Assembly: GCA_024220525.1 (NCBI GenBank)
Contig: JAMYWO010000056.1
Location: forward strand, 56,081-113,601
Direction: 5' to 3'
Origin: Cochliopodium minus
Taxonomy: Eukaryota; Discosea; Himatismenida; Cochliopodiidae
Length of the DNA stretch: 57,521 nt
Every line of letters starts with the position of its first letter. The stretch's first letter is position 1. The notes below the pieces were generated by a model. The model was given only the letters and a program-made list of their open reading frames with translations. It was not told the DNA's origin and did not search any database. Below are positions 12,123-52,404 of this stretch, piece after piece. Made by a program: the position numbers and the translations under genes.

Positions 12123-13673
12123 ATGTATCCTTACCTCTTCACTTTATTGATCAGATTTTTAATATGTATATTTCAAACATCTTATATCCATCCTGATGAA
12201 TTTTTTCAAGGACCACAAATAGTATCAAATATAGTGATGGGAGGGATTGAAAGAATTTATATACCTTGGGAATTCGATAAATGTCCTCCAAATAGATCAA
12301 TAGTACCACCATTCCTTGTATTTGGAATTCCATTGTTGATAATAAGAGATATATTGAGAATAAAATTAAATGAAAAGATATTATTGATAGTGCCAAGGAT
12401 ATCAATGTTTTTATGTTCATTAATAGTTGGTAAAATAAAAATATATGTAATAAGAGTTTAATATCATAAAACAATTTATTGGACAGATTGCGTCATCTAC
12501 ACCATATCAAAAAAGAATACAAACACAGTTAAGAATGAAAGAAATAAGATTGATAATTTATTGATCTATTCAACAAGTTGGGTATGTCTTTCATTTCTGA
12601 CAAAAACATTTTCGAACAGCACAGAATGTATCTTCTTTTCATTGTTGATAATGTTGGTGATCAAAAACACACAAGCAATGAAGAATTACAAAGTCTCATA
12701 TTCATTAATGGGAATGGTTATTTCACTGGGAATCTTCACAAGGTTCACATTTGCATTTTTCTCTTTGATTCCAGGAATATACTTTATCTTCAAAACTTAC
12801 ACAATGAAAAAGAAAACAAAAGATTGGATTGTATCATTATTTTATGTGATAATATCTTTTGTTTTGACTTCTCTTTTAATAATAATAATAGATACAATGT
12901 ACTTTCAAAATTGTAGAAAAGTTGGTTCTTCGTTCATTCCATCTCTAACCATAACTCCCCTCAACAATTTTCTTTATAACACAGATACATCTAATCTAGC
13001 ATTGCACGGAGAACATCCGAGATATCTCCATCTATTAGTCAATACACCAATGCTATTTTTTCCAATTGTTTTATATTCATACAAGAATTTTCGATCACCA
13101 AACATATATTTTATTTGGTTTTTGTCAGGATTGTTTTTCATTTCTCTAGCTCCTCACCAAGAACCTCGTTTCCTTGTTCCTTTATTAACACCTTTGGTTC
13201 TTTCCATTCAAAACACTTCTCACTCGAAATTCCTATTCTTTTTTCACTTATTCTTCAACATTCTTTTGACTTTTTTGTTTTCATTATTGCATCAATCAGG
13301 TGTAGTTCAATCTCTCCTTTCCATTTGCCCTCTTCTTTCCGACACACATACTTTTACAAACATCTTTTATTACAAAACATACATGCCTCCTACCTTTTTA
13401 CTATCTTCTTGTGCTTCACACGTAAATTTGATAGATATCGCTGGTTCTTCCATGCACGTTGTAAAACAATATTTGGAAGAATACTCGGTTGCAAGTTTGA
13501 ATCAAACTTTGATTGTTTTTCCTTCTTCTTTTTTTGATTCTCTTTCTTCCAGCATCCCTTGTAATTTCCTTTTGTTGAAATCTTTCTCTCCTTTTCTCAG
13601 CACTGAAAATTTCCCGTCTTCTTTCTCTCACCTTTATTTAAACTTGTATAATGTAACTAATTGTTCATTTTGA
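12123..13673 (+). CDS. GPI mannosyltransferase, GT22 family (PIGZ/SMP3-like)
   Basis: Two exons (12123-12429 and 12487-13673) give about 497 residues with many membrane helices. The hallmark luminal loop TSYIHPDEFFQGPQ follows the first helix. The RxWEF-type element appears as IPWEF, and later SLAPHQEPRFLVPLLTPL carries the family's H-x-E-P-R-F motif. These features identify the dolichol-phosphate-mannose dependent GT22 enzymes of GPI-anchor synthesis in the ER. The fourth-mannose enzyme (PIGZ/SMP3) is the best match because of HPDEFFQ, but PIGB is not excluded. The ORF is open upstream to 12033. I prefer 12123 because the first membrane helix begins directly there. The C-terminus is divergent. 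Confidence 0.88.
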
Positions 13674-23028: not shown

Positions 23029-24313
23029 ATGGAAAAGGATGATATGATTGAAGAAAAAATTTTAGAGAGTGAAAATAAAGATATAGAATCATCAAGTGAA
23101 GAATCATCAAGCGAGGATGATGATGATTTACTCAATGTAGAAAATACTTTGGCAGAAGCTTTAAAGAAATAGTATGACTCAATTCAAAAACAATAATAAA
23201 ATACTATAAATAATTCTCCTTTCAATATAATTCATTAATTTTGATTTTTCTTATTTTTTTCCGATAGTAAACCAGCAATCGCTGAAAAAGAAGATGATCT
23301 TCAATATGATTTATATAATTTGACCGCATCAGATTTACATCCAATTGACGAAGATAAAATGAAGACTGAAAATGGATATTTGACATCAGTATCAAGAGAT
23401 AATGTACAATTGTTGATGAATCAGATCTTTTCATTGCCAGGAGAGGGAATAATGGTAGAATTGCCAGAAATAGAAAATATAAAGATCCCAAGAGAAAAAC
23501 CATTGCCCAAAGAGAGACCACCAACCAAATGGGAGAAATTCGCCAAAGTAAAAGGTATCAAAAAGAGAAAGAAAGAAGCGATGGTCTTTGATGAGATGAC
23601 TGAAGATTATATCCCAAGATACGGTTATAAATCTGCTAAAAATGATGGAAGAGATTGGATCATCGAGGTTAATGATAAGCATGATGGAACCACCGATCCA
23701 TTCGAGACCAAACAAAAGCAGAAAAAAGAACAAATCGAGAAACAATCAAAACAAGAAAGAAGTAATAGAGCTAACGCATCCAAAAGCATTCAAAAGATTG
23801 CGGGTTAGTTTTTTTATAAATATAATTTTATTTTTTAATCATTCCTTTATCAAATTTAATTTTTTACATTAATTAGGTGATAAAAAAGCTTCCATTTTGC
23901 TTAATCCCCATAAACGTGAAGGAAAATCCAAAATCAGCGAAGATAAATTCAATGAAAACTTGAAAACTCAAATCATGCTTTCCAAACAGTCCACCGCTTC
24001 CTTCGGTAAGTTCGCTCCTGCCATGGCTGGTGAACCAAAGATGAAAAAGAGAAAAGTAAAGAAGGATTCTGTCGTCCAAGATTCAAAGCTCGAAAACGAG
24101 AAAAATCTCAAAATCTATGATCGTGTCTTTAACAAAAAGAAAAAAGATATCATCAACATTGCAAAGGCTGTTAATCAAACCATTCAAAAAACTGATTTTG
24201 ATACTCGTAGAAAGAATGTACAAGATAAGCACAGCAAAAACAACAAAGGAGGCAAAGGTGGAAAAGGTGGGAAAGGTGGGAAAGGTGGAAGCAAGAACAA
24301 CAGGAAGAAATGA
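23029..24313 (+). CDS. RRS1: Ribosome biogenesis regulatory protein RRS1
   Basis: Three exons (23029-23171, 23268-23803, 23877-24313). An acidic Ser/Glu/Asp leader is followed by YDLYNLTASDLHP, the hallmark LPREKPLPKxRPPTKWEKFAKxKGI (seen here as IPREKPLPKERPPTKWEKF), an [VD]FDEMTEDYIPRYGYK element and DWIIEV. These are the conserved blocks of RRS1, which recruits 5S RNP (with RPF2) to pre-60S particles in the nucleolus. The C-terminal half is Lys-rich with several KKRK-type nuclear localisation signals and ends in a (GGK)n run plus KNNRKK. It is a single-copy essential gene in other eukaryotes, and the architecture looks complete. It lies head-to-tail with the NMNAT gene, only about 100 nt away. 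Confidence 0.95.
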
Positions 24314-24413: not shown

Positions 24414-25588
24414 ATGTCCACAAAAAAAAAGAGAGCAAATAGCCCTAGTAAGGATGAAAATAAGAGCAAAAAGAATGCCAAAACTGAATATAGTTTCCCT
24501 ACTGAACATTTGAGAACCAAAAGCAACTCTAAAGCTCGAAAATGCGTTTTGCTTCTTGCTGGGTCATTCTCTCCTATCACATTCATGCATTTGAGATTGA
24601 TGGGTAAAATAACAACATATTTATTTTCTTCATTATAAAACTCTTATATTAAATCAAAAAAGAACAAGCGAGAGATTTCTTGGAGAAAGATGGAATATAT
24701 GATGTTGTTGGAGGATATTTTTCTCCAGTTGGAGATTCTTATAAAAAGAAGGTATGAATTTATTGTAACTTTCTTTATGATATAATTGCTCAATCTTTAT
24801 AGTTCTCACCTTCATATTTTCACATTAAAAAAAAATATTTTTATAAACTCATTCAAAAGGGATTGGCAAGTGCAACTCATAGAAATAAAATGATTGAAAA
24901 ATCCATAGAGAGTTCTGATTGGTTAATGTTGGATAAATGGGAGAGTGAACAAAAAGAATATCAATACACTGCAGTTGTGATTGAACATATCCACACAGAA
25001 GTTCAAAAACATTTTAAAAAAGAAGAAATCAGAGTCATTCTTGCTTGTGGATCAGATTTGTTCAGTTCTTTGAAGAAAACTGATGTGTGGAGCGATAACG
25101 ATGTAAAAAAAAAACTAATCTTTTTATTTGATTTATTGGTACATATAATTTGTTATATCTAATCCTATGATACAAAATATAATCAATAATATTTGATCTT
25201 TGATCAATTTATCCCAAATTTCCATTTTTAAAGATTCATGGATTATTCAAATTTGGTGGAATTGTTGTCCTTGAGAGAGAAAGCTCCGTCGATGTTATGA
25301 AGATTGTTGATGAACATGACTTGCTCTATTCTTATCGCGTAATAATCAAATTTTCTTTCCTTTATAATCTTAAAGATCTTTGTTCTTTTTGCATTTTAGA
25401 AACAAATACATTATGTGAGACAAAATATTATCAATGATACGAGCTCTTCTACAGTCAGAAAATTGATTTGCCGTGGATATTCTGTCAAATATCTAATCCC
25501 TGATGGAGTTTTCGAATACATCAAGGACAATGATCTTTACAACGATAAGGCTCTCGAGAAGCAAGTTTCTATTTTCGGAAATTATTAA
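24414..25588 (+). CDS. Nicotinamide/nicotinate mononucleotide adenylyltransferase (NMNAT)
   Basis: Five exons (24414-24603, 24663-24751, 24860-25102, 25234-25338, 25400-25588) give about 271 residues. The nucleotidyltransferase signature GSFSPITFMHLRLME (GxFxPxxxxH) lies after a Lys-rich, possibly nuclear, leader. YDVVGGYFSPVGDSYKK and LASATHRNKMIE match NMNAT substrate-loop blocks, with VILACGSDLFSS and VWSDNDVIHGLFKFGGIVV in the middle. DTSSSTVRKLICRG corresponds to the (I)SSTxxR motif that binds ATP phosphate. It converts NMN or NaMN plus ATP to NAD+ or NaAD. The length is close to human NMNAT1, and all motifs look intact. The leader KKKRANSPSKDENKSKKN suggests nuclear targeting. Confidence 0.95.
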
Positions 25589-25820: not shown

Positions 25821-28800
25821 ATGAATAATCAAAATACAATCGATATTCGCCAAAAAGATGATTCTTTATCTGATAATAAGGAAATAGTGCAAGTTCATAC
25901 CAGAGCACCAAACTTTTTGATCACAAGTGTCGAAGGAGATTCCTTCGATCTCTACAACTACATTGAAGGAGGTTATGGTTTAATTGTATCCTTCCCAAAA
26001 GACGATATGATAGATTTGGCAGCTTTATGTGCCCATTCTCCTGATATTATGAAGAGAAATACAAGGATTATAGGTAATAAGAAAAAAATACGTTAAAAAA
26101 TTTTATAAATTTTAAATTTTATTTCACATTTATAAAATTTTCTTCATTATTTAAAGGCTTATCACCTGAATCTGAAGAAGAACTATCCATAAAACTTTTG
26201 GATCTCACAGAAAAGTATCAAATTCCCATCTCCTTTCCCATCATTTGTGATTCTGAATTGAAGGTATTGACAAAATATGGATTCGTAATGAACAAGAAGG
26301 GAAAGCAAATCATTCAAAAAGGGTTGTATATAATCAGAGGACACAATGTAGAAATGTCAGCGATGTTCCCACCATACCACACAAGGTAATAGATATTTAA
26401 AATCTTCTTTGAGAAAAGATCAATTACAAAAAAAAGAAATATTTAAATATCTGTATTTAACTTCCTCATCTTTATTTTACTTCCTCAATAAATCAAATAT
26501 AATTAAAAATTTTAATTTTTTCAAATACTTATTTTTTTCCCCATTTTTAATAATAACTATAGGAATTTCAAAATCTTGACGGATTTCATCGATAGTTTCC
26601 AATCTGATTTAATGAATGAGGAGAGAAATCTCACCGCTAGTTCCAGTGAAGTCGATAACACCATAACCAAAGAAAAGAAATCAAATAAGGACAAGGATAG
26701 TGATGAGAATCCATTCTCCAAAGAATTTGATAATCAACCAAGAAGAGGATCATTGATTGATCAAAAGAACATGTCGAAGCAGAATCCCCTCATCCCAAGA
26801 CTCAAACAAGAAAGAAGATCATTATTACAAAAGGAGAATTCTCTCCTTGATATCTCCAATTCCATCAATCATGTTGAACCTATTCATGAAAAACTTAAAA
26901 ATATCAGCGTAAAATATAAATTCTTATTTTTCGTTTACAATAATAACTTTTTTTGAATTCAGAAATCAAATTTGTATACTTTGGAATTCAGCGAAGAAGA
27001 GATGAGACAATTCTCCGAAGCAATAAAGAGGATTCCTCTCCACAAAACAAAGATAGAGGAAGATGAAGTGTTGGCATTCGAGGGTAGAATAGGATTCGAA
27101 GTGATCACTACAGAGTTGAAACTTCCATCCAGATTTCACACGGAAAACATCATGAACTTCCTTCTCGCAAAGGGATCCATTGTACCTCTGTTTCCTACCA
27201 AGTTTGGAAAGAAAGATTTCAAGAACGACAAGACTTTGTACACCCCTGTCAACTACATTTTGTCCAAGAAAGAAGATTGCATGAAGCCTTGCAAAGAACT
27301 TCTTAATCCAAAGTCCTTCGCTAGTGTCGTCAAGTTTAAAGTAACCCAAGTCAAGCACTTGGATGAAAAAAACAGCAAGTTTTTGTCAGGAAAGAAGTAT
27401 TTCTGGGAAATCATGGCCGGAAAGGACATCATTCACACCAACTCGACAGAATCTTCCGTGTTACTCGAAGAAAAGGATCATGTTGTTGTCAGCTTTCCTG
27501 TCTTCTACAGCAACCAAACCCTCAACATTTCTTTGGTCAAAAAGAAATTCCATCAATCTTCCAACTTGCACAGATTTGAGGCATCCATCGCCTTGTCCCA
27601 AATCACTCAAAATCCAAAGTCCTACTGGGTCTCCCTCATCGACAAACTCACCTTGGACACCGTAGGAAAGTTGAAGATCAACATCTACCAGACCTTCCTC
27701 CACGGAACTTCTGATGACAACACTCACGTCATTCCTGCCTTGTATCCTCCATCTTACTACGAACAGTCCCCTGTTGATCTCGCCAAGTTGACCGTTCAAA
27801 ACAACCCCAAGTACAACAAAAAGTCTTTGGTGTTTGGTGAGCCCAATCACAGATGTTGTATCGACTTTGTTATTGGCGAAGATGAAAAAGATGATGTCAA
27901 GTTGGAAGGGTTCTTCAAGTTTGGTGTCACCACTGCTTCTGCTGGCCTCTTTGTCGAGCTCTTCTTGCAAGACGGAGACACTTACATTCATCGCGGTAAG
28001 TGGAAGTCTTACGGTGTCACTGAGACCCAAAAGGGTGGCAGAGTCGAGTTCACCGTTCCTCACAGCGCCTTCTCCAAGAGAACTCGTGTTTACATGGTCA
28101 TGTTGAACGACTTTACCTATGCTCGTGGTTGTGTCTGGGTTCTTAAGAGAGGTAAAAAAAACTGTTTTAAATTTCAATTTTTATTTTTGATTTTTTATTT
28201 TTTATTTTTTATTTTTTATTTTATTTTATTTTTTATTTTTTATTTTATTTTATTTTTTATTTTTTATTTTATTTTATTTTTTATTTTTTATTTTTTATTT
28301 TTAAAGGAACAAAGGCTGTTATCTTTGATTTGGATGGTACTGTTTCCACTCACGATATGGAGTTGATCAAGACCTTGATCGGAGAGCCTCTCAAAATCCA
28401 TTATGACGGAGAAGAAAGAAACGGTGCAAGATTTTGCGTCAACTATTGGTGGGCGCTTGGTTACTTGCCTATTTATTTATCGGGAAGAGCGGGTAATTTT
28501 TTTTAAAATATTTTTCATTTTTTTTTAAATATTTATATTTTTTTTTAATAAAAGGATCTTACTATGAGTTAACCTTGAAATGGCTCGAAAACCATAACTT
28601 CCCACCAGGTCTCATCGGCCACACATTGGACAGCATCCCTACCTTGCCTATCTACAAGGTTTTGGGTTCCGAGAGATTGGGTGTCGGAACTTTCAAGCTC
28701 AGCTACCTTAACAACTTGCGTGACAAATACGGTTTAGAGTTTAGAGGTGCTTATGGTAACACTTCTACTGATTCCAAGGTAAAATTTTTTTATTTTATTT

Positions 28801-29083
28801 TAAAATTTGTTTGTATTTATAATTAATTTCTTATTTAAAGGTTTACAACAAACTTGGGGTACAAAAAGAACAAATTTTCATGTTGTCAGGAGGTGGAATG
28901 GTAAACTTTTTATTTTTTATTTTTTTTTGAACAAATTTTCTTATATTTTTTCAAATTAAGGGTTTTAGACACGGAAAAATGGATTATGTTGACATTGGAA
29001 GGGACTACATGAACCATTTCAATTATTTGGACAACTTGGAAGTCTCTCCTGTTAGAATTCCAACCACTTATGTTTCTTGGTAG
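25821..29083 (+). CDS. Cysteine-less peroxiredoxin-like domain fused to a lipin/Nir2-type LNS2 phosphatase-like domain
   Basis: Eight in-phase exons (25821-26073, 26157-26385, 26563-26908, 26963-28151, 28307-28492, 28555-28778, 28841-28900, 28961-29083) give about 869 residues. Residues 20-170 follow a 1-Cys peroxiredoxin (Prx6 type): APNFL, LIVSFPKDD, IMKRNTRIIGLSPES, ISFPIICDSELKVLTKYG, then MFPPYHTRNF. The loop that should hold the peroxidatic Cys (PxxxTxxC) is shortened and has none. After a charged linker (about 170-290) come two beta-rich regions I do not recognise. The C-terminus (about 665-869) is an LNS2-like HAD domain: VIFDLDGTVSTHD keeps the DxDxT nucleophile pattern, with LPIYLSGRAGSYYELTLKWL, TFKLSYLNNL and GAYGNTSTDSKVYNKLG. 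In lipins and Nir/PITPNM proteins this domain binds or dephosphorylates phosphatidic acid. No membrane helix is visible. Confidence 0.85.
28180..28306. repeat. Intronic T/A-rich repeat
   Basis: Intron of the peroxiredoxin-LNS2 gene, made of TTTTTTATTTTTTATTTTATT-type units (shown in shorthand) and ending in a normal TTAAAG acceptor. The sense strand is T-rich, as in other introns here. Confidence 0.85.
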
Positions 29084-42846: not shown

Positions 42847-44672
<1,826 letters not shown>

Positions 44673-47944: not shown

Positions 47945-50900
47945 CAAGAGTGGCATCTTCAAAAGAAATTTCGCCATTGATAGGCCAATTTTTGTCGAAA
48001 GAAGAAATCTCTTCTTCGGAGTATTTCTTCTCCTGTTCGAGTCTGGAGAAGTGGACGATTCTTTCGACGGAGTTCATGTTGGACTCCAAGGACGCGAACG
48101 ATTTGATCAGCCAGTTGATTGTTGTTGCGCAGTTGGTTGAATAGCTCAATGCAAGTCCCACTATTTAAGAATCATTAAAATATAATAAAAAAATAAATAA
48201 AAATAAATTAAAAAAAAATAAATAATAAAAAATAAATAATAAAAAATAAATAATAAAAAATAAATAATAAAAAATTGAAATAAAAATAAAATATGAAAAC
48301 CGAAAAAATAAAAACCGAAAAAAATATAAAAAAAAATCAATAAAAATAAATAAAAATAATTTAAAAATAAAAATAAAAATAAAAAATAAAATAAAAATCA
48401 TTTTTTAATTAAAAGATTTTACCATAAGAAGGGTTAATATGATCTTTGTTTACAATAGAATACAACGAAATAAATAAGAGTGCAAAAGTGGAAATGATGC
48501 TTGAGCGAAAACTGGGTTTTTAAATATTCAAAATTTTAAAAAAAAATTTAAAAAAAATTCAAAAAAATTAAAAGTAAAATTGAAAATTTAAAAAAGAAAA
48601 ATTTTTTTTTAAAAATGAAAAATAAAAAACGAAAAATAAAAAAATAAAAAAATAAATTAAATTACGTCAACCAACGTTCGAGACTTGTATTAATAAAAGT
48701 ACATTTGCTGAAAATGTCAACTCTCTCATCAATTTTGTTGATGAAAATTTTTTCAACATTACGAATACCTTATAAAAATTAAATCAAATTTCTTTGAATA
48801 TTTTTTTTGAATATTTTTTTAAATTATTTTACCAGAATTTCTGATGATTTTGAGTCCGTTTATTGTTTCGTTCAATTTACTCGTGATGTCTGTTTGAGCA
48901 ATATTTTTTAAACGAACAATCTCCCTCGAAGAGCGACGAAAATATCTTGAAAAAAAATTTTAAAAATAAAAATTTAAATAAATTAATAAAAAAAAAAAAA
49001 AATCAAAAAAAACTTTATAAAATAAAAATAAAAAATACCTTTGTTGAAAATAAAAGAGGGAGAGAATCAATAAAACAGCGTAGATGCCCAGAGAGCTGGT
49101 GGTGATGATAATAATGATGGTGGAGATGATTTGGAGGATACGGTCTTGGGTGTCTCGAGCTGCTTCGGAGAGGACATTGTCGATGTGGTCAATATCCGTC
49201 GAAAAACGGGACTGGAAGCGCCCAAGTGGAATTGATTCGAAAACTAAAAAAATTGGAAAATAAAAAATTTTAATAATAAAATAAAGGTAAAAATAAAAAA
49301 TAGAGCAATAATAAATAAAAAATATAAAAATTTTAAAAAATGAATGAAATAAAAAATAAACGTAGATAAAATAAAATATTAAAATAAAAATTTTAAAAAG
49401 ATGAATTAAATAAAAGGGTTTACCAGTCTTTTTGATTCTGAAGACAGATTGGATGAGAACGTCATGGAAATAAGTGGAGGAGGTGATGGAAGCAAAAGAG
49501 TTGGAGATCAAGTGGATGAGCAAAGAGATGGCGAGGCCAGAAGCGTAAAGAAAGTAGATGAAGAGGTTGTTGGAGTTTTGGTACTTGTTGTGGCTCGACA
49601 CACTCTGGGCCCACTGAGACAAATAAAAGTTCTGATAAAGCCCAAAAGCAGAACTGATGGCGATGAAGATGAAGCTGGAGGACCAATAGAAGGGGGAACT
49701 TTTGAAATAGTTCCAATAATTTCCGAGCTTAACTCCGCCATACTCCCTCCTCTCCTTTATGAACTGGTTTTCTTCGATATCTCCTTTCTGAGGCAAATCC
49801 AGAATTTCGCTCGAATCCGACCTTTGTACTTTGGGTGTTTTGGTTCCTTCGATGTTGCTTTTTGTTTCGGTGTTGAGCTCGGAGATGAGCGAGGTGAACA
49901 GTTGTGAATTTTTAGTGAGTTCTTCAAATGTCCCTTGGGCCTCGATCTCTCCGTTGTTCATCAAGATGATTTTGTCTGCTTTGAGGATCAAGTTGATGTG
50001 GTGGGTCACCAACACACGTGTTTTTTTAGATAATATATTTTCTATACACTCCCCGTAAACATATTGTGCAACGTTTACATCTTTTTTAAAAAAATGATTA
50101 AAAAAATTAATTAAAAAAAATAAATAAAAAAATTAATTGAAAAAAATAAATAAAATTTATAAAAAAGATTTAAAAAAGATAACCAAGTGAAGAAAAAGGA
50201 TCATCCAATAAATATAAGTCAGTGTTAGAATATAAAGTTCTAGCAAGACTGATTCTCATTTTTTGCCCACCGCTCAAATTCTTCCCACCCTCCCCAAGAA
50301 AGTTTTGGTCGCCGTTAGGAATTTTAGAAAAGTCGGCGTCTAACGCACAAGCCTTGATTACTCTTTCGTATCTCTCTTTGTCATACGGTATTCCTAGTGT
50401 GATGTTGTCTCTGATTGTGTCGAAGAACAAGAAGGGTTTCTGTGACAAAAATGACAAGTTTTCTGAAATTTCGATTTTGGAATTGGAGGAAGGGACCAGC
50501 TTCATTTCCATCATTAAAGCATGTAACAATGAAGATTTTCCAGACCCAACTTTTTCAGAAATTAAAATGAAAAATAAAGAAAATTTTATTATATATAACT
50601 TTGAAAAAAAAAACGTCAATTTATATAACGAAAAAAAAAAATAATCAAAATAAATAGATTTTTTTACCTTTTCCTACAATAGCAACTAAGTCACCCTTTT
50701 TGATCTCAAGATTAACATTTTTGAGAGAAAATTTATTTCCATTTGAAAACTTGTTATCTTTTTTTTCGTCTTCACGAAAGTCCCAAGTGAAATTTCCATT
50801 GAGAACTCTGACAGAGTACTGATCAGAAGGAACAATGCTGATGGGTTGCTTCTCTTCGATGTTGATAAAGTCTTCCAACCTTTTGATGGCGATGGAAGCC

Positions 50901-52404
50901 TCGACCATAGAAGAAAGGACACTGTTCATCTGTGTGAAGGGGAGCTTTAAAATGGAGATAAGAGAAATGGTGGTGAAAGCGGTGACGGGATTAAGTATTC
51001 CCCCCGTCAAAACAAAAATGAGAAAAGATACACAGATGGTTCCGGGGATGGTGATGGAGTTGATGAAAGTGTGGATTGCTTTGGTGATTTGGTACATTTT
51101 GATTTGTTGCAACTCCTTTTCCCTGATGTTCAAAACTTTGTCCAGAAAATACTCTTCGATGACGTAAAGCTTGATGGTCTCCATGCAGTGCAAAACCTCC
51201 GAGGACTTACTGACCCTCTCATCCGTCTTCTTTACGATGTTCTTTCTCAAAATATTGGATCTGCGAGCAAAAAAGATGGACAAAGGAATTGAAAGTGAAA
51301 AGAACATAAACGATCCCACTGAAGGAAGAAATCCAAGCAAACTGACCGAAAAAATGAAGGCAAAGATGATCAGAAGGGTCGTTGCCCACGTGAAGTGCAA
51401 GTATCTGTACGCATTCTCGAGCCTCAATGTGTCATTAGATAGCAAGTTGATGATCTGACTCTTCTCCGATGTGTTCATCACTTTGCTGCTCACCCTCAGA
51501 AGTTTAGAGTGGAGGAAACTCATCATTCCTGTTCTTATTTCTTGACCCACTTTGTTCTATTATTTTTAAATAAAGAATCAATCTATATTCTCACCAGATA
51601 TCCGATATAATCGTAAGGTAATTATTATTTGTTGGAAGCGAATTATAAAAGCATAAATCATTCGCTTTAATTTTTTTGAGTATATGCATATTATTGTTGG
51701 TTTTCTTTTTTGATATTAAAAAGGGGTGAATGATATTTTATGTTTATATATTAAAGTGATTAATTTTTGCGACTGTGAAAATAAATTATCAATCATTTTT
51801 TTTTTGATGATTACGTAATCCAATTTAATGAGAACAAAAATACTTTCTCTATTAATAATTTTTACCGTTTGGAACCAAAATCTTTGGAGAGTCAATGTTC
51901 TGATGGTTGGGATCGTGATGATCAAGAAGATGATCAAAAGGGGATTATATGAAGGTTTATCTTTCAATTGAACATAACTGATCACCATTTTGATCACATA
52001 TGGGATAAATATCTCCACAATGGCATAAACCAATCTATCAGGAATAGCTCTAAAAAATTGATATTTGAATGTATTCCATAAACAATTAAGAAGATTATTT
52101 GATTTGGAAGATGATGATTTATTATTCCATTCTCTTTCTATATTCTCCCTTATCACATGTGTTTTGGGCTCTAATTCATACATATCATCAAATTCCAAGG
52201 GTCTTTGATTCCCCAAATTCAATAATGGCGTTAGCCAATTAACCATCCATCTTACAAATAAATGAACATTTAAATTAAAAATTATTAAAAAGAAAAAAAA
52301 AAGAAAATATATGGTCTTGAATGTTGAATATATGTTAAATTGGAAATGATCTACCCTGTGAGGAAGGAATTATCAATTTTTCCCTTATTATTTTCTATAT
52401 TCAT
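47945..52404 (-). CDS. ABCC/MRP-type full ABC transporter, second nucleotide-binding domain missing (3' truncated)
   Basis: Starts at 52404 (MNIENNKGK) and continues with GWMVNWLTPLLNLGNQRPLE, the ABCC 'S/F-x-W-x-[TS]-P-L-[LI]' entry. The first membrane domain includes VGQEIRTGMMSFLHSKLL, LLSNDTLRLEN and LKLPFTQMNSVLSSM. NBD1 has Walker A split by an intron (IVGK-VGSGKSSLLHAL), the NLSGGQKMRISLART signature, LYLLDDPFSSLG (Walker B) and a switch His in VLVTHHINLI. A linker (EEREYGGV-like) leads to membrane domain 2: FKSSPFYWSSSFIF, GRFQSRFSTDIDHIDN, LKNIAQTDITSKLNETINGL and SLERWLT. The last exon ends FDKNWPINGEISFEDATLG at 47945, exactly where NBD2 should begin. The rest is beyond the block edge. 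It would export organic anions or conjugates. Confidence 0.92.

Follow-up and report, generated by a model that had tools for sequence, protein, structure and literature searches.

A gene of Cochliopodium minus was found to encode an 869-residue protein in which a peroxiredoxin 6 (Prx6)-type domain, dead as an enzyme on sequence evidence, is fused to an LNS2 domain whose active site looks intact. The predicted domain order is pseudo-Prx6, linker, DEP, C2, Ig-like β-sandwich, and LNS2. A second, diverged gene copy with matching architecture is present elsewhere in the genome.

Gene Structure and Genomic Setting

The gene lies within a 57,521-nucleotide stretch of DNA (G000:C56:56081-113601, hereafter the window; 27.4% GC) from a 44.65 Mb assembly of 598 contigs. 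It occupies positions 25821–29083 of the forward strand and contains eight exons (25821–26073, 26157–26385, 26563–26908, 26963–28151, 28307–28492, 28555–28778, 28841–28900, and 28961–29083). When the exons were joined computationally from the window sequence, 869 stop-free codons were obtained. All seven introns have GT..AG borders, exon GC (0.34–0.45) exceeds intron GC (0.04–0.17), and a TAA stop is located immediately upstream of the start ATG at 25821. The open frame, the intron borders, and the second copy bear out the single in-phase gene model proposed in an earlier note on this DNA. The GC content was 0.34–0.36 in exons 1–3, 0.43–0.45 in exons 4–6, and 0.37 in exons 7–8; a comparable rise along the exons was seen in the second copy.

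The gene immediately upstream (24803–25588, forward strand) matched Pfam CTP_transf_like (E 8e-5) in its first piece, while the second piece had no match; reading it by eye, we take it to be nicotinamide mononucleotide adenylyltransferase (NMNAT)-like. Elsewhere in the window, the forward strand encodes ribosome biogenesis factor RRS1 (23245–23808, Pfam E 3e-52) and an Alg9-like mannosyltransferase (12462–13673, Pfam E 8e-35), and the reverse strand encodes a papain-type cysteine protease with a propeptide (43652–44110) and an ABC transporter membrane region (50645–51556).

A Second Copy and the Reality of the Fusion

The LNS2, N-terminal, and middle parts of the protein were used in turn to search the C. 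minus genome, and each search listed one further gene, in every case the one at C19:121549-125545. These match lists are lower bounds, and the genome thus contains at least one further copy of the fusion. The C19 gene has 11 exons and codes for an 874-residue protein with an identical domain order from end to end. The two proteins are identical at 417 of 848 positions overall. Identity is 146/197 (74%) in LNS2, 71/106 in the sandwich, 120/288 in residues 277–566, and 59/145 (41%) in the Prx domain. The linker (residues 177–276; 26609–26908, forward strand) is the least conserved part, with 16 identities over about 99–103 aligned residues.

Four of the seven window introns (before residues 85, 161, 735, and 810) coincide with C19 introns in both alignment column and phase. 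The phase is also common to both copies for the intron at the linker/DEP junction (277), which is displaced by three columns where the alignment is poor, and for the intron preceding LNS2 (673), which is four columns off. One intron (830) is specific to the window copy, and four are specific to the C19 copy. Since two diverged copies have introns in common in Prx as well as in LNS2, the fusion is most likely older than the duplication that produced them. The upstream neighbours of the copies differ, being the NMNAT-like gene in the window and a gene that, by eye, we take to be zinc-finger-like on C19.

It is highly improbable that the gene is an artefact of misjoined neighbouring genes or of a chimeric assembly. 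Such an origin would agree with the lower GC content of exons 1–3 relative to exons 4–6, and with a synonymous divergence between the copies that is lower in the Prx part (dS 1.03) than in other parts (2.9 or saturated). However, the C19 copy, on a different contig, has the matching domain order and common introns in both Prx and LNS2, which is a strong argument against either artefact. The same-phase intron between linker and DEP spans merely 54 bases in the window copy and 90 in the C19 copy, leaving little space for a gene boundary, and the last Prx helix shares one exon with the linker. Moreover, the linkers are stop-free in both copies, whereas only 3 of 5000 dinucleotide shuffles of the window linker (104 codons) and 2 of 5000 of the C19 linker (121 codons) were stop-free in that frame. 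Both artefact readings were rejected on the basis of the second copy, the common introns, and the open linkers, and the Prx–LNS2 fusion is, as judged from the two gene sequences, real.

The Peroxiredoxin Domain Has Lost Its Catalytic Residues

The N-terminal domain (approximately residues 23–176; 25887–26073, 26157–26385, and 26563–26608, forward strand) matched Pfam AhpC-TSA over residues 26–145 (E 6e-9, 36.2 bits, cut-off 26). Against the same cut-off, the C19 copy scored 26.5 bits when its segment was searched alone but 22.5 bits when the complete protein was used. A two-row profile of the domain matched peroxiredoxins in PDB, the best match (E 1.7e-13) being 5ovq, whose title reads only “Peroxiredoxin”. 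The likeness to Prx6/1-Cys peroxiredoxins (5ykj, 1xcc, 2v2g, and 1prx) extends along the domain, in agreement with the earlier assignment of a Prx6-type fold. The earlier claim that the peroxidatic cysteine is lost also held in both copies: the loop that carries it is replaced by a four-residue gap, which lies between D62 and M63 of the window protein (26001–26009, forward strand). Of the five phmmer alignments to PDB chains that were shown, three (5ykj, 1xcc, and 6p0w) span the active-site loop and two begin downstream of it; in all three, the peroxidatic cysteine falls inside the gap, the register of which is TPVC in two cases and PVCT in one. When aligned by MAFFT with the Prx6 that the genome encodes on contig C140, both fused copies had the gap over TPVC, and the cysteine of the PxxxTxxC motif is absent from both.

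Other catalytic positions are changed as well. The C140 Prx6 is intact, retaining TPVC, TSWG, the HEW histidine, and the VRC arginine. In both fused copies, the SHP histidine (the H39 position of Prdx6) is replaced by Phe, and the arginine at the R132 position, which we assume to be that of VRS/VRC, is replaced by Lys. The SWG serine is changed to Gly and the tryptophan to Tyr or Phe, so that the counterpart of GDSWG reads EGGYG in one copy and NDGFG in the other; the HEW histidine (H26 type) is Tyr or Glu. The D140 position, counted from the arginine, is not Asp even in the intact C140 protein, and nothing was therefore drawn from it. The lists of Prdx6 peroxidase and phospholipase residues in the portion of PMC8102515 consulted include H26, S32, and W33 for the phospholipase. 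All three positions are altered in both copies, and a Prx6-type phospholipase A2 activity, which had been offered as a link to lipids, was rejected. Redox sensing, the other role suggested for the domain, fared no better: the window Prx domain has two cysteines, C70 and C115, and the corresponding part of the C19 copy (residues 1–160) has none. Neither cysteine is therefore conserved, and thiol redox sensing was rejected as a function common to both copies. By these residue-level comparisons, the Prx domain is dead as an enzyme in both.

Between the copies, the Prx part has a dN of 0.57 and a dS of 1.03. The resulting dN/dS of ~0.55 points to weaker constraint than that on LNS2. Such moderate constraint fits a scaffold that can dispense with catalytic residues, though as evidence of function it is not strong.

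The Middle Region Comprises Three Predicted Domains

The approximately 400-residue middle region, described in the earlier note as unrecognised, was resolved by domain search and structure prediction into DEP, C2, and a PITPNM-type Ig-like sandwich. The putative DEP domain (approximately residues 284–373; 26984–27253, forward strand) matched Pfam DEP with E 0.084 in the window protein and E 4.2e-6 in the C19 segment, both under the curated cut-off; the predicted fold is backed by an AF2 model and by the top rows of a VIA-align structure search. Dvl2 and RGS7 also contain DEP domains. In comparison with DEP proteins such as Dishevelled, pleckstrin, RGS7, and DEPTOR, the fusion DEP falls below the Pfam curated cut-off and has a different protein context. 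A C2 β-sandwich (approximately residues 391–527; 27305–27715, forward strand) was predicted by structure searches with an AF2 model; the segments of both copies were without a Pfam match to C2 at E up to 10 and without a PDB profile match. Confidence in the AF2 models was modest for both DEP and C2. The third domain, an Ig-like β-sandwich of the PITM1-3 type (residues 571–666; 27845–28132, forward strand), was placed by Pfam PF24695 (E 0.0037 with the whole window protein, 4e-4 with its segment, and 2e-4 with C19, all under the curated cut-off) and by alignment with PITPNM1 (9jtz). A plasmid search for relatives of exon 4, which encodes the three domains, produced none.

The LNS2 Domain and Its Active Site

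The C-terminal LNS2/HAD phosphatase-like domain (residues 673–869; 28307–28492, 28555–28778, 28841–28900, and 28961–29083, forward strand) matched Pfam LNS2_PITM1-3 (PF24694) over residues 677–824 with E 9e-20 and 71.4 bits (cut-off 27.7). The general LNS2 family, PF08235, scored slightly under its cut-off (31.3 against 32.3 bits), and a weak match to PNKP phosphatase (E 0.055) was also under cut-off. A two-row profile of sandwich plus LNS2 had one clear match in PDB, human PITPNM1 (9jtz, E 9.7e-19), which covers both domains (profile positions 11–260); the remaining two PDB rows listed had E values of 0.29 and 0.85. The two-domain C-terminal module is thus common to the fusion protein and PITPNM1/Nir2, but in the fusion it is preceded by pseudo-Prx, DEP, and C2. 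At E up to 1, Pfam searches of the fusion protein returned no IP_trans and no DDHD match, and the presence of a PITP or DDHD domain was rejected; no Lipin_N was among the families listed at the same threshold.

The catalytic motif reads DLDGT (D680, D682, and T684; 28327–28341, forward strand) in the window protein and also in the C19 copy, upholding the earlier report of an LNS2 domain with DxDxT kept, whereas PITPNM1 has the non-catalytic SIDGS. In the lipin-type phosphatase Tt Pah2 (PDB 6tzy), the active site consists of D146, N268, and the D148 carbonyl on Mg2+, plus K244, S191, and R193, and the D146A substitution abolishes activity, according to the part of PMC7066176 consulted. All six Pah2 positions are retained in both fused copies (D680, D682, S731, R733, K782, and N803 in the window protein). 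In human PITPNM1, D146 is replaced by Ser, S191 by Thr, and N268 by Ser or a gap. The LNS2 active site of the fusion thus looks intact, in contrast to that of PITPNM1, the nearest human protein of solved structure. With lipin/Pah proteins it has in common DxDxT and the active-site Ser, Arg, Lys, and Asn, but it differs from them in its weaker PF08235 match and in its flanking domains.

LNS2 is the most constrained part of the protein (dN 0.19, dS 2.9). Within it, residues 735–782 (window 28492–28697) are identical between the copies at 47 of 48 positions, which, given the dS of 2.9, argues for selection and against recent gene conversion. In both copies, seven residues that PITPNM1 and both lipins compared lack are inserted after DxDxT, near the active site, and could change the substrate. 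A second insertion, located before the lysine within residues 735–782, amounts to 12 residues relative to PITPNM1 and three relative to the lipins.

Related Genes

The C. minus genome also contains a separate lipin-type LNS2 gene on contig C50 (locus L039, G000:C50:10500-18000), in which five of the six Pah2 positions are retained and the serine is replaced by Thr. This gene has the motifs DIDGTITKSD and GFGNRHTD; its catalytic half contains a long poly-Asn tract, and a run of N is also present. Ordinary Prx genes are located on contigs C30 and C140; the C140 Prx6 (locus L042, G000:C140:58500-61000) appears to consist of numerous small exons, of which some may be just three bases in length. 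Since an intact Prx6 gene and a lipin gene are present, the fused gene is not simply a substitute for either. A PITP-type gene on contig C68 was the sole IP_trans match listed, and two DDHD matches were found, both under cut-off, with the best (E 9e-4) on contig C67. Exon-wise profile searches of the genome are incomplete, as those with PF00578 and PF08235 failed to list even the window gene.

One scan of genome contigs returned no relatives of the fusion. A search of viral contigs returned one locus (L038), a 176-residue ORF with a DLDGT motif and 31% identity over 81 residues, which was taken as another HAD phosphatase and set aside. In the mainly open-access literature searched, we found no paper joining LNS2 with peroxiredoxin or with a DEP domain, and none that treated LNS2 together with phosphatidylinositol transfer proteins and phylogeny in protists. 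The architecture, which the earlier note had likewise not recognised as a known one, is likely novel, as judged from this literature.

Proposed Function

In the reading that we consider moderately probable, the fusion protein would be recruited to a membrane, where it would work as an Mg2+-dependent HAD phosphatase on phosphatidic acid or a closely related phospholipid, its Prx fold being a scaffold without catalysis. Docking on an anionic membrane would be the task of DEP and C2. Together, the sandwich and LNS2 would make up a catalytic face like that of lipins, which would meet its lipid substrate at the membrane. The dead Prx would be neither an enzyme nor a thiol sensor, serving instead for dimerisation or for binding of a partner. 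Titles cited in PMC7555651 report binding of phosphatidic acid by the DEP domains of Epac1 and Dvl-2, which would fit the putative docking role of DEP. That the gene is transcribed as a single unit, that its product is active on the proposed substrate and binds membranes, and that Prx is a scaffold are inferred here from sequence and predicted structure. The six retained Pah2 positions, the strong constraint on LNS2, and the occurrence of the same design in two copies favour a phosphatase, though retention of DxDxT is, by itself, no proof of catalysis.

The main rival is that the protein senses phosphatidic acid as Nir1 and Nir2 do, LNS2 binding the lipid without hydrolysing it and the other domains organising a contact site or signalling complex. 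We regard this as rather unlikely, although several observations point that way. The best family and PDB matches are to PITPNM-type LNS2, and the portion of PMC12419160 consulted suggests that Nir proteins sense phosphatidic acid without dephosphorylating it, so that kinship points to a sensor; the separate lipin gene may, in addition, already fill the basic phosphatidate-phosphatase task. However, the same portion of PMC12419160 describes Nir LNS2 as keeping lipin features but lacking the catalytic DxDxT Asp and a further Mg2+ ligand; both copies of the fusion have retained these residues. A membrane-bound phosphatase might also act on a substrate different from phosphatidic acid, such as a phosphoinositide or phosphoprotein. 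The weak PNKP-phosphatase match and the seven-residue insertion near the active site would agree with this, and HAD folds vary in substrate, but the overall kinship is with PITPNM and lipin modules, for which phosphatidic acid is a ligand or a substrate, and we consider a different substrate improbable.

Significance

Tentatively, the two genes may define a new phosphatidate-type phosphatase family, which would combine a PITPNM-type LNS2 domain that has kept or regained a full lipin-like site with DEP/C2 targeting and with a Prx fold as a pure scaffold. If this is true, the fusion would be the catalytic counterpart of the Nir2 phosphatidic-acid sensor, and a Nir/PITPNM C-terminal module with an intact active site would provide a natural test of the relation between phosphatase and sensor and of the residues that separate them. 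The Prx fold has been kept in two diverged copies after loss of the residues needed for both known Prx6 activities, and it is therefore probably doing something other than these.
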